Assembly: GCF_001907695.1 (NCBI RefSeq)
Contig: NZ_KV880637.1
Span: 1,054,001-1,118,000 of the forward strand
Direction of reading: 5' to 3'
Length of the DNA stretch: 64,000 bases
Source of the DNA: Thalassospira sp. TSL5-1
GTDB lineage: Bacteria > Pseudomonadota > Alphaproteobacteria > Rhodospirillales > Thalassospiraceae
Within the stretch, counting starts at the first letter, position 1. Every line of letters starts with the position of its first letter. Below are positions 21,176 through 38,011 of this stretch, one piece after another. Under the pieces are notes generated by a model, which searched no databases, was not told where the DNA came from, and worked only from the letters and a program-made list of their open reading frames with translations. A program made the position numbers and the translations under genes.

Positions 21176-21613
21176 TCAGGCGTCCTTGGCAATGGCGATC
21201 AGGATGCTGCAGGGCGCATGGGCCAGAAGCGACGCACCGGTGGAACCACCCCACCAGCGTGCCAACGCCCCCTGTTCACGGTGGCCAACCACAATCAGGT
21301 CCGCGTTTATTTCCTGGGCGACACGGCCAATTTCATTGGCGGGAATGCCATTTTCAAGGCGGGTTTCAACCGACAGTCCCCGATCCTGTAGCTTGGCCTT
21401 GCCCTCTTGCAGGCTGGCTTTAATTTCGGCCAGCATCCGGTCTGGCAGGTCGGAGGGAACGGCGGCCTCGGCATAGATAACACCAATATCGGGGGACATA
21501 ACCGCCAGCAGGCAGACGTCGGCCTTGCACATGGTTGCCAGTTCCGCCCCCTGTTTCAGGGCTGCGCGGCCTTCTTGGCTGCCGTCATAGGCCAGCAGGA
21601 TTTTTTGATACAT
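21176..21613 (-). CDS. Universal stress protein, single domain
   Basis: A 145-residue UspA-fold protein (KILLAYDGSQEG start, DLIVVGHREQGALARWWGGSTG near the end), with the G-x2-G-x9-G(S/T)-like ATP-binding motif present. The ATG at 21613 was chosen because AAAGGCG precedes it; an ATG six codons upstream has no ribosome site. A hairpin separates it from mscS upstream. Confidence 0.88.
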   Translation of the reverse strand: MYQKILLAYDGSQEGRAALKQGAELATMCKADVCLLAVMSPDIGVIYAEAAVPSDLPDRMLAEIKASLQEGKAKLQDRGLSVETRLENGIPANEIGRVAQEINADLIVVGHREQGALARWWGGSTGASLLAHAPCSILIAIAKDA

Positions 21614-21637
21614 GAGGTCGCCTTTTTGCATGAAAAA

Positions 21638-27400: not shown

Positions 27401-28021
27401 ATGGACGAAAAAATTACGACAAAAATTGGGCAGGTGCCCCACAATGATCCGTTCGATCTTTTTGATGTATGGTTCCGTGAGGCAAAAAACAAGGAAGATG
27501 CCTATCCCGATGCCATGACACTGGCAACGGCGGATGCACAGGGGCGGCCGTCTGCACGCGTTGTGCTGCTTAAGGATTTTGATCCTGAAGGATTTGTTTT
27601 TTATACCAATTACGAAAGCCGCAAGGGAACGCAGCTTGGTGAAAATCCCTATGCAGCCTTGTGCTTTCACTGGAAAAAACTGGAACGCTGCGTGCGTATC
27701 GAAGGCCCGACCCGCAAGGTAAGTGCTGCCGAGTCGGATGAATATTTTCAGTCGCGTGCGCGTGGCAGCCAGATTGGTGCCTGGGCATCGGTGCAATCAC
27801 GCCCCATGTCGGGGCGGTTTGATCTGGAAAAACGGGTAGCGGAATTTACGGCCAAATTTGGTTTTGGCAAGGTTGCGCGTCCGGAACATTGGGGCGGGTA
27901 TCGCCTGGTTCCCGACCGGATCGAGTTTTGGTCGGAAGGTACGTTCCGCCTGCATGATCGCCAGCTTTATACCCGCAATGTCGAGGGTAATGGCTGGCTG
28001 GTTGAAAAGCTGTTTCCCTAA
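27401..28021 (+). CDS. pdxH: Pyridoxamine 5'-phosphate oxidase
   Basis: A 206-residue FMN enzyme that oxidises pyridoxamine- or pyridoxine-5'-phosphate to pyridoxal-5'-phosphate, the last step of vitamin B6 cofactor synthesis and salvage. The FMN-binding segment ARVVLLKDFDPEGFVFYTNY, SRKGTQLGENP and the C-terminal WGGYRLVPDRIEFWSEG...RLHDR signature are all present and the length is standard. Convergent with the ArsR gene. Confidence 0.96.
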   Translation: MDEKITTKIGQVPHNDPFDLFDVWFREAKNKEDAYPDAMTLATADAQGRPSARVVLLKDFDPEGFVFYTNYESRKGTQLGENPYAALCFHWKKLERCVRIEGPTRKVSAAESDEYFQSRARGSQIGAWASVQSRPMSGRFDLEKRVAEFTAKFGFGKVARPEHWGGYRLVPDRIEFWSEGTFRLHDRQLYTRNVEGNGWLVEKLFP

Positions 28022-28083: not shown

Positions 28084-28389
28084 TTATGCCTTGTCGGGCG
28101 GGCAGAAAACCTCTTGCAGGGTCAGGATCACCTTCGTGACATTGGGGTCTTTGATCGAATAATAGATCGTTTGGGCATCGCGCCGCGTTTTGACAAGGCC
28201 ATCACGCCGAAGCCGGGCAAGATGTTGTGAGAGTGCGGATTGTTTGAGCTGCAATTCGTTTTCAAGCGTTCCGACCGACTTTTCCGTTCCGCCAAGTGAA
28301 CACAAAATCATCAAACGCCACTGGTTTCCCAGGGATTTGAGAAATTCGGAAGCCTCAAGCGCGTTTTCATACAGTTCGCTATAATTCAT
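28084..28389 (-). CDS. ArsR family regulator of the BigR/SqrR sulfide-sensing type (inferred)
   Basis: A 101-residue winged-helix repressor (recognition region QLKQSALSQHLARLRRDGLVKTRR). Two cysteines, C30 (RLMILC) at the end of the second helix and C96 (EVFC) in the C-terminal helix, are 66 residues apart, the same spacing as in the persulfide sensors SqrR (C41/C107) and BigR (C42/C108). No arsenic- or zinc-site motif is seen. I infer a sulfide/persulfide sensor, but no sqr, dioxygenase or rhodanese gene is nearby. The ATG at 28389 was chosen; a longer reading to 28464 is unlikely. An inverted repeat lies upstream at 28475-28498. Confidence 0.8.
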   Translation of the reverse strand: MNYSELYENALEASEFLKSLGNQWRLMILCSLGGTEKSVGTLENELQLKQSALSQHLARLRRDGLVKTRRDAQTIYYSIKDPNVTKVILTLQEVFCPPDKA

Positions 28390-28829
28390 TGGTTTCGGTC
28401 TTTGTCCGTCGGCTTGCGGGTTCAGATATATGCCGGGTTGGCGCGTGCCTAGCGGCTTTTCCATTCACGGTTTTTAACATTCGATGGTGTTAATGTTACA
28501 TTTTGGAACGCCGCGTCAAAAACAAAATGGAAATTGGTAGAATTGTTTTTGGGTTTTATCCTGTTTCGACGCATTAATTTTGCCCCACGCTTTCAACATT
28601 GATACGAACAGGGTGAAAGACAATATCGTCGCGAAAATTTGCAGCTGTCGTTATCGCGAGGTAACGTAACGGAACTTTGAGAAATTACAGTTTCTTGATT
28701 TCTGACAAAGACGACATAATGAATTAGCGTGAAACTGCCTTTTTACAGATCACTGCGATCCTGTTGCGATTATCCCGCCCGTCAGGATGGCAGAACGATC
28801 AGGCTCAACCGAATATGGGGTATGAAACC
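28390..28829. other. Divergent intergenic region between ArsR and stress-protein genes
   Basis: 440 bp without a credible gene. It contains the inverted repeat at 28475-28498 and must hold promoters for both flanking genes. A weak half-match to an FNR box occurs at 28695-28708 but is not convincing. Confidence 0.5.
28475..28498. promoter_or_regulatory. Inverted repeat upstream of ArsR gene, candidate operator
   Basis: TAACATT (28475-28481) and AATGTTA (28492-28498) flank a 10-bp spacer, about 85 bp upstream of the ArsR start codon. Binding by the ArsR protein is a guess from position. Confidence 0.4.
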
Positions 28830-29687
28830 ATGGCTGTACGCACAATTTTGGCTCCGGTTGCTGGATCGGAAATGGACCGGCGGGTTCTTGCACTGGCGTT
28901 TAGTGCTGCCCGGCGCTTTGACGCGCATCTGGAAGTGATATTTGTTGCCCCCGAACCACAGGATGTTATTCCGATTGTGGGGGAGGGCATGTCGGGCCTG
29001 ATCATTGAAGAAATGATGGGGGCCGCCGAAAAGGAAACCAAAAAACGCCTGGCAAATGCCGAGGCCGCCTATCGCACCGCGCGCGAGGCCGCCGGTATTG
29101 ACGAGGCTGATGCACCGCGACCCACCCTGCAGCCGACTTGTGCGTGGCGTCGGGATGACGGGCGCGAGGATGAAACCGTTGCAAGGCGCGGGCGATTGTT
29201 TGACCTGGTGGTGATTGGCCGGGACCCGCGCGAAGCCGCCGCATCGCTGACATTTGATGCCTGTTTGATGGAAACCGGGCGACCCTTGCTGGTGGCACCG
29301 GAAACCGTGCCGGGCGATGTGGGCTCGAAGGTAATGATTGCCTGGAATGGCGGGGTCGAGTCTGCCCGGGCGGTGACATCCTCGATGCCGCTTTTGCGCC
29401 AGGCCAGCGAAATTACCATTGTCAGTGTGGGTGAAGTCCCGCATGGCCGCGCCACCGCACAGGCGCTCGCGGAACAGTTTGTCTGGCATGGGGTGAAGGC
29501 CAAAGTTGATCTGCGCCCGGACCAGTCAAACGTGGCGGCGGCCCTGATGGATGCGGCAAAAAATTGCGAGGCAGATAGCATCGTTTTGGGGGCTTATAGC
29601 CATTCGCGCTTCAAGGAAATGATTTTGGGCGGTGTGACCCAGGATATGTTGGCAAAATGTGCATTGCCGTTGTGGATAATGCATTGA
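28830..29687 (+). CDS. Tandem-domain universal stress protein
   Basis: A 285-residue protein with two Usp folds (about 1-145 and 160-285). The second ends with LGAYSHSRFKEMILGGVTQDML, close in form to the end of the tandem Usp at 37169-38011. Its N-terminal half contains an odd Glu/Ala-rich helix (EKETKKRLANAEAAYRTAREAAG). The ATG at 28830 was chosen over one at 28815. It follows the divergent ArsR gene and ends at a strong terminator. Confidence 0.87.
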   Translation: MAVRTILAPVAGSEMDRRVLALAFSAARRFDAHLEVIFVAPEPQDVIPIVGEGMSGLIIEEMMGAAEKETKKRLANAEAAYRTAREAAGIDEADAPRPTLQPTCAWRRDDGREDETVARRGRLFDLVVIGRDPREAAASLTFDACLMETGRPLLVAPETVPGDVGSKVMIAWNGGVESARAVTSSMPLLRQASEITIVSVGEVPHGRATAQALAEQFVWHGVKAKVDLRPDQSNVAAALMDAAKNCEADSIVLGAYSHSRFKEMILGGVTQDMLAKCALPLWIMH

Positions 29688-37168: not shown

Positions 37169-38011
37169 TTAGTGCGAGAACAGAACCGGCACGGTCATAT
37201 GCTTGAGCAGATGTTGCGTTACACCGCCCAGCATCAATTCGCGCAGGCGCGGGCGGCCATAGGCCCCGCACAGCATAAGGTCGATGCTTTCATCGGCAGC
37301 ACGCGACAGCAGGAGGTCGCCAACGCTAATACCTTCGGCATTCATGGTTTCCTTGCGCACATTGACACCATGACGTGCCAGGCGGTCGGCAATATCCACA
37401 CCGGGAACCGGGATGGAATCGCGCGCGGCCTTGTTGGGGTCCGCACACAGCACCAGGGCGGACTTGGCATTTTCCAAAAAGGACATGCCATCATTTACGG
37501 CGCGAACGGCTTCGCGATAAGGTTTCCAGGCCACCATGATCCGGGTGCCGATGGTTTCATATTTTCCATAACGCGGCACAACCAGAATGGGGGCACCTGC
37601 GGTCAGAATAACCTTGTCAGGCATTTCCGAGGTCGAGGACGGGTCGGAGCTTTCCGGGTCGTACTGGCCCAGAACCGTCAGGTCATGATGGCGGGCATAC
37701 ATGGCAACGGTATCGGCAATTTCGGTGGCAAGGCAATTTACTTCCTGCCAGTTAAACGGAACACCCGCCTGTTCGCAGGCTTCGGTGAAGGCGACCTTGG
37801 CCGATGCTGCGCCCTCGCGGATGGTGCGACGCTGGGCTTCCATGATGTCGGCGGAAATTTGCACTTCCATGAAACGCGGGATTTCTGCACGGGGCAGAAC
37901 ATACAGGCCGGTCAGATGGGCCTTGTGTGCCTTTGCAACATTCAGCGCCACCGAAAGCCGTTCGGCGCAGGGTTTGGTATTGTCAATGTGGACAAGCATA
38001 TCGCGAAACAT
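37169..38011 (-). CDS. Tandem-domain universal stress protein
   Basis: A 280-residue protein with two Usp domains (about 1-145, 155-280). The first starts MFRDMLVHIDNTKPCAERL and the second ends GAYGRPRLRELMLGGVTQHLL, paralogous to the Usp at 28830-29687. Such proteins act in stress survival, often binding ATP; the ligand motif is only partly kept in the second half. Single gene with its own terminator. Confidence 0.9.
   Translation of the reverse strand: MFRDMLVHIDNTKPCAERLSVALNVAKAHKAHLTGLYVLPRAEIPRFMEVQISADIMEAQRRTIREGAASAKVAFTEACEQAGVPFNWQEVNCLATEIADTVAMYARHHDLTVLGQYDPESSDPSSTSEMPDKVILTAGAPILVVPRYGKYETIGTRIMVAWKPYREAVRAVNDGMSFLENAKSALVLCADPNKAARDSIPVPGVDIADRLARHGVNVRKETMNAEGISVGDLLLSRAADESIDLMLCGAYGRPRLRELMLGGVTQHLLKHMTVPVLFSH

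Follow-up and report, generated by a model that had tools for sequence, protein, structure and literature searches.

Judged from its sequence, the ArsR-family regulator encoded in the window (the whole stretch of 64,000 nucleotides of Thalassospira sp. TSL5-1 DNA that was analysed) is a new member of a known group of sensors, with the usual sulfur neighbours and the usual operator of that group gone. Taking the explanation as a whole, we consider it probable that this is a cysteine-pair ArsR of the persulfide group that has been rewired in Thalassospira, and that an Fnr/Dnr-type regulator is the more likely driver of the stress-protein gene (usp) facing it. In every Thalassospira examined the gene stands alone, encoding a putative cysteine-pair repressor of the persulfide (sulfane sulfur) group. 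We infer that the reduced ArsR dimer would bind its own promoter and one or more other targets, and that sulfane sulfur would bridge C30 and C96 and thereby release the protein from DNA. Activation of the adjacent usp would more probably pass through a TTGAT-N5-ACAA box, with co-control by the ArsR possible. The features of the locus are as follows.

27401..28021, plus strand: pdxH-type gene (pyridoxamine 5'-phosphate oxidase), convergent with arsR; marks the conserved position
28084..28389, minus strand: ArsR-family regulator of 101 aa with C30 and C96
28475..28498: inverted repeat TAACATT-N10-AATGTTA, not conserved and at chance level
28493..28500: ATGTTACA, kept as ATG[AT]TA[CT]A in 28 of the 29 Thalassospira gaps
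28695..28708, plus strand: TTGATTTCTGACAA, upstream of usp and kept as TTGAT-N5-ACAA in all 29 Thalassospira gaps
28830..29687, plus strand: tandem universal stress protein gene, 285 aa with two Usp stretches, divergent from arsR

C30 and C96 are the only cysteines of the protein, which contains a single histidine, H56. The original prediction had drawn attention to the 66 residues between them as the spacing found in SqrR and BigR, and the PDB sequences of both bear this out; because the pair is also 66 residues apart in HlyU (3jth from V. vulnificus and 4k2e from V. cholerae), the spacing is a rule of the group and no special mark of this ArsR. In the PDB sequence of YgaV the distance is 67, owing to one extra residue. 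Pfam assigned the protein to HTH_5, and phmmer searches against the PDB returned HlyU (2e-24), SqrR (4e-24), NolR (1e-20), YgaV (4e-19) and BigR (2e-15), with CzrA (7e-10) and SmtB (1e-6) as weaker matches. The score against the NCBIfam BigR model NF040642 was 86.5 bits, under the curated cut-off of 155, as were the scores of two PDO-linked relatives (L125, 86.3; L069, 87.0), a SoxR-like protein (L071, 91.6) and a paralogue (L055, 98.7). An AlphaFold2 model built from a 16-row alignment (mean pLDDT 88.9) matched HlyU (Z 17.1), SqrR (16.5), BigR (15.7) and YgaV (15.1) in all of its top ten fold-match rows (Z 15.1-17.1); the metal sensor CzrA came next at Z 14.8, so close that the lower margin is a tie, and the fold by itself therefore does not decide the group of this ArsR.

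In the model, C30 lies within helix 23-32 and C96 is the residue right after helix 82-95, which places one cysteine of the pair in alpha2 and the other in alpha5. The protein has neither a CXC metal motif nor an adjacent cysteine pair in alpha3, no second cysteine lies close to C30 or C96, and the last helix is free of histidine. All 29 Thalassospira orthologues retain both cysteines (28 counted by script; L026, which has a one-residue insertion, was checked by eye), as do all 57 locus rows from outside the genus, taken from the best 80 of 259 relatives (55 by script and 2 by eye, some rows being one gene fetched twice). According to the accessible part of the source, persulfide sensors in SSN cluster 4 of the ArsR family are distinguished by such cysteine pairs (PMC10509353). 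HlyU of Vibrio, which the same part reports as a persulfide sensor of that cluster (PMC10509353), is the best match to the window ArsR in both sequence and fold and shares with it the recognition segment QSALSQHLA.LRRDGLV; HlyU controls a hemolysin gene, whereas the neighbours of the window ArsR differ. SqrR and BigR, which repress sulfide oxidation, have the same spacing, fold and tree group (with outgroups), but the window ArsR is not beside sulfide-oxidation genes and falls under the NCBIfam BigR cut-off.

With four other ArsR proteins as outgroups (three ArsR-type proteins of the window's genome and one of a congener; duplicate sequences, and genes fetched again as part of longer loci, were left out), the window ArsR grouped with HlyU, SqrR, BigR and YgaV at 94/95, and with two outgroups (a chosen 55 rows) at 100/93. 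The protein is therefore placed within the BigR/SqrR group, as the original prediction had expected, with the caveat that NolR, which lacks the cysteines, also falls inside. Thalassospira orthologues formed one clade in both trees (100/99) and in a third that included NolR (a chosen 52 rows with one outgroup; 85/99). In the two-outgroup tree this clade grouped with HlyU, BigR and the PDO-linked and RND-linked relatives (89/89), a group that was not recovered once NolR was added and one outgroup kept. Because the alignment has about 100 columns, the branching order inside the sensor group is mostly unresolved; SqrR grouped with other Thalassospira paralogues, which adjoin PDO or CcdA/YeeE-type genes, and not with the window ArsR, and NolR fell in the same unresolved group as the window ArsR. 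In the aligned stretch NolR carries D and G in place of the two cysteines, and the cysteine pair is therefore a real, separate character. Membership of the ArsR, with its cysteine pair, in the persulfide-sensing BigR/SqrR/HlyU/YgaV group is thus supported at the level of sequence comparison.

The neighbours of the relatives in other genera are genes for persulfide dioxygenase, rhodanese/YgaP-TM or RND pumps. A search of genome contigs with the 16-row alignment found 259 relatives, of which the best 80 were kept (23 from Thalassospira and 57 others); as similarity was the basis for choosing the 57 loci, which are also related to one another, counts among them are not independent and overstate independence. 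A divergent PDO-type gene lies within 400 bp in 49 of these 57 loci from the best 80 of 259, a divergent RND adaptor gene in 5 and neither in 3, and a YgaP-TM domain is encoded downstream of arsR in 40. Because 49 of the 57 face a PDO-type gene, sulfane-sulfur sensing by the window ArsR is likely. One such locus (L125) encodes a metallo-beta-lactamase fold (371.9 bits with the Blh model), rhodanese and YgaP-TM domains, and TauE.

The upstream regions of the same 57 loci contained the dyads TTGCT-N5, TTAGC-N4 and GCTAA-N1 in 18, 13 and 11 cases, against a maximum of 2 in 20 mononucleotide shuffles, and 54 of them agreed with TTGCTAANTTAGCAA at no fewer than 11 of its 14 positions. TTGCTAAWTTAGCAA stands out as a strong likely operator between PDO (or the RND adaptor) and arsR (loci L119-L173, which are from Caulobacterales and Sphingomonadales, and L134, L137 and L148). 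Judged by title, none of the papers listed in a literature search for TTAGCAA with ArsR concerns these regulators. In the 29 Thalassospira gaps the best match to TTGCTAANTTAGCAA reached only 8-10 of 14 positions, with 7-11 in 290 shuffled gaps; by this comparison, the likely operator of the relatives is lost from the arsR-usp gaps of the genus. The window's genome contains no exact GCTAANTTAGC and 16 places with one mismatch, versus 207 for the reversed control, and TTGCTAANTTAGCAA with up to three mismatches occurred in at least 102 places versus at least 175 for the control. The TTGCTAAWTTAGCAA site was rejected as a regulon marker in this genome because neither pattern was enriched over its control, and no regulon was therefore drawn.

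The PDO-linked ArsR proteins (Caulobacterales, Sphingomonadales) and those linked to RND and YgaP-TM genes (Terasakiella) are 51-61% identical to the window ArsR. Opposite them lies a PDO or RND adaptor gene, and TTGCTAAWTTAGCAA-like sites are present; Thalassospira has neither. Terasakiella and related genomes show the order DnaJ-17kDa-PdxH-CDF-YgaP-TM-ArsR, from which adaptor and RND pump genes diverge. The arsR beside pdxH in Terasakiella shares its DnaJ-17kDa-PdxH flank with the window gene, whose position is thus the one seen in these genomes; a clade of the window ArsR with the pdxH-linked genes of this type was neither shown nor rejected (p-AU 0.264). As both the sulfur neighbours and the TTGCTAAWTTAGCAA site of the relatives are gone in Thalassospira, the wiring appears to have changed. 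Even without control of usp, the locus neatly illustrates the loss of the usual operon and operator from around a conserved sensor, and this loss makes the target of the ArsR a well-posed question.

The original description of the gene neighbourhood was accurate: 440 bp separate arsR from the ATG of the tandem stress-protein gene, in which two Usp stretches can be recognized, and arsR adjoins pdxH and usp, not sulfide-oxidation genes. Sulfur-handling genes beside the regulator, which are usual for the group but not obligatory, are thus missing here. All 29 Thalassospira genomes, the window's own included, have the order pdxH(+)-arsR(-)-usp(+); these genomes are not independent of one another. 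Across the genus, orthologue identity falls to 70% for ArsR and 69% for Usp, and the order survives an insertion of about 260 bp in the gap of three genomes. These insertions (L017, L030 and L031) lie just upstream of arsR and have an inverted-repeat look. SDR, Usp, PdxH, 17-kDa and DnaJ genes were all present around arsR in 23 of 23 named genus loci with 6-kb flanks; because the whole DnaJ-17kDa-PdxH-ArsR-Usp-SDR block is conserved, the adjacency of arsR and usp may be passive. We also observed three Usp-family genes within a 17-kb part of the window, at 21176-21631(-), 28830-29687(+) and 37169-38011(-), two of which encode about 280 aa.

The inverted repeat that had been proposed as the operator is present at 28475-28498, but its exact form occurs in only 1 of 29 genus gaps, the window's own, and an orthologue locus with 93% identity does without it. 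On average, a dinucleotide shuffle of the gap had 0.88 inverted repeats of arm length 7 bp and spacer length up to 20, and 47.5% of 400 such shuffles had at least one; the real gap has four, two of them overlapping. We therefore ruled the repeat out as an operator, being unconserved and at chance level, and the mechanism built on it is not supported. The surroundings of its left arm are conserved no better than the gap median, and its right arm overlaps the conserved word ATG[AT]TA[CT]A. In a 14-mer scoring of the gap, two stretches stood above the median, TTAATGTTACATTT at 28490 and TTGATTTCTGACAA at 28695. The former contains ATG[AT]TA[CT]A, whose distance from the start of arsR is 73-127 bp but 384 bp in the three gaps with an insertion. 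As the right half of the repeat is in one of the two best-conserved stretches, a site there is possible, and ATGTTACA may be a promoter or operator element of arsR. A half-site reading of GTAA-N15-TTAC, made by eye in one subclade, was abandoned, as it does not hold in the subclade to which the window belongs.

The second stretch contains TTGAT-N5-ACAA. All 29 gaps have this element, 116-138 bp ahead of the ATG of usp, and none of 1450 mononucleotide shuffles does. It resembles an Fnr/Dnr box, and a corresponding role upstream of usp is presumed. Compared with TTGAT-N4-ATCAA, 24 gaps agree at 9 of 10 bases and the other 5, among them that of the window, at 8 of 10; matches at 8 of 10 are common within the window alone (54 found, 33 expected). 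An extended 18-bp form of the box was not repeated elsewhere in five genomes with up to two mismatches; with three mismatches it was unique to the arsR-usp locus in three of the five, and the site was not recovered in the window's own genome or in G010. These scans appear neutral towards, or speak against, a common genome-wide Fnr motif. The accessible parts of two reports describe direct activation of usp genes by Fnr in Dinoroseobacter shibae (PMC5398030) and an Fnr box centred at -41.5 of uspA in Sphingopyxis granuli (PMC7713065). These Fnr/Dnr-controlled genes and the Thalassospira usp have in common, as far as those parts go, a TTGAT-like box upstream, but the second half-site in Thalassospira is (A/G)ACAA and not ATCAA.

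We think it unlikely that the ArsR keeps the divergent tandem usp repressed until persulfide stress lifts the repression, which would link reactive sulfur to a stress protein as originally suggested. The divergent order in 29 of 29 genomes, its persistence while identities fall to 70% (ArsR) and 69% (Usp) and its survival of the insertions in three genomes speak for this model, and two Usp proteins were raised in sulfide proteomics of Acinetobacter baumannii, as given in the accessible part of that study (PMC7315123). Against it stand the proposed operator, found in 1 of 29 gaps and at chance level, the absence of the relatives' likely operator from the gaps, the conserved block in 23 of 23 named loci, which may make the adjacency passive, and the conserved box by usp, which resembles an Fnr/Dnr site. 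Control of the stress protein by the ArsR is therefore possible but unsupported, adjacency being the whole case for it. A more elaborate version, which we hold to be a doubtful speculation, is that a persulfide sensor lost its detoxification neighbours and operator and became fixed genus-wide by usp, which also has the Fnr/Dnr-like box. Through one control region of 320-600 bp, usp would then be activated at low oxygen and derepressed by reactive sulfur, and the word ATG[AT]TA[CT]A may be the core of a new operator. If the ArsR does control Usp, the locus would directly exemplify signalling by reactive sulfur to the Usp family; open-literature searches on universal stress protein with persulfide and ArsR returned only the Acinetobacter proteomics (PMC7315123), those with hydrogen sulfide also a review, and among the matches listed for Thalassospira with ArsR or Usp none treats this gene. 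The opposite view, that the protein has kept its fold but no longer senses sulfur and acts as a constitutive DNA-binding protein like NolR, is very improbable. NolR, which lacks both cysteines, is among the nearest solved relatives and shares the QSALSQHL recognition segment, and the sulfur neighbours have been lost in Thalassospira, but both cysteines are kept in 29 of 29 orthologues although the protein has diverged to 70% identity.

The favoured reading, a rewired sensor of the persulfide group, must also be weighed against a target elsewhere, as the genome contains a sulfur-dioxygenase (SDO) operon in search of a regulator. This is a run of YgaP-TM, SDO, BLH_phosphatase and sulfate permease genes from C1:1974840 onwards, and its locus (L175, G000:C1 about 1973340-1977190) contains a split Blh-type operon without a linked ArsR. 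The window ArsR and a paralogue at C1:1035810 (56% identity) are the only strong group members in the genome and are therefore natural candidates to regulate the operon. We nevertheless think it rather unlikely that the window ArsR is the displaced regulator of the operon, acting in trans. The model fits an operon with no ArsR match in its 3.8-kb locus and with none of the 11 HTH_5 matches of the genome near it, when such operons have a linked group ArsR in 49 of 57 relatives (from the best 80 of 259) and only those two strong members are at hand. The other paralogue, however, is an equal candidate, and 6 of the 29 Thalassospira genomes lack a close SDO yet keep the ArsR orthologue (a strong SDO is present in 23). 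In six genome pairs, moreover, the word common to the arsR-usp gap and the region upstream of the SDO operon was 8-9 bases long, as in shuffles, and such a shared word was rejected as chance-level.

In a Thalassospira clade (L185-L199), a gene that looks by eye like Crp/Fnr lies just upstream of SDO, in the place that YgaP-TM occupies in the relatives of the window. The paralogue at C1:1035810 is itself a second cysteine-pair ArsR (L055:7787-8110(-), G000:C1:1035810-1036097) beside ispA/dxs-type genes, and upstream of it GTGATAA-N9-TTATCAC can be seen by eye.
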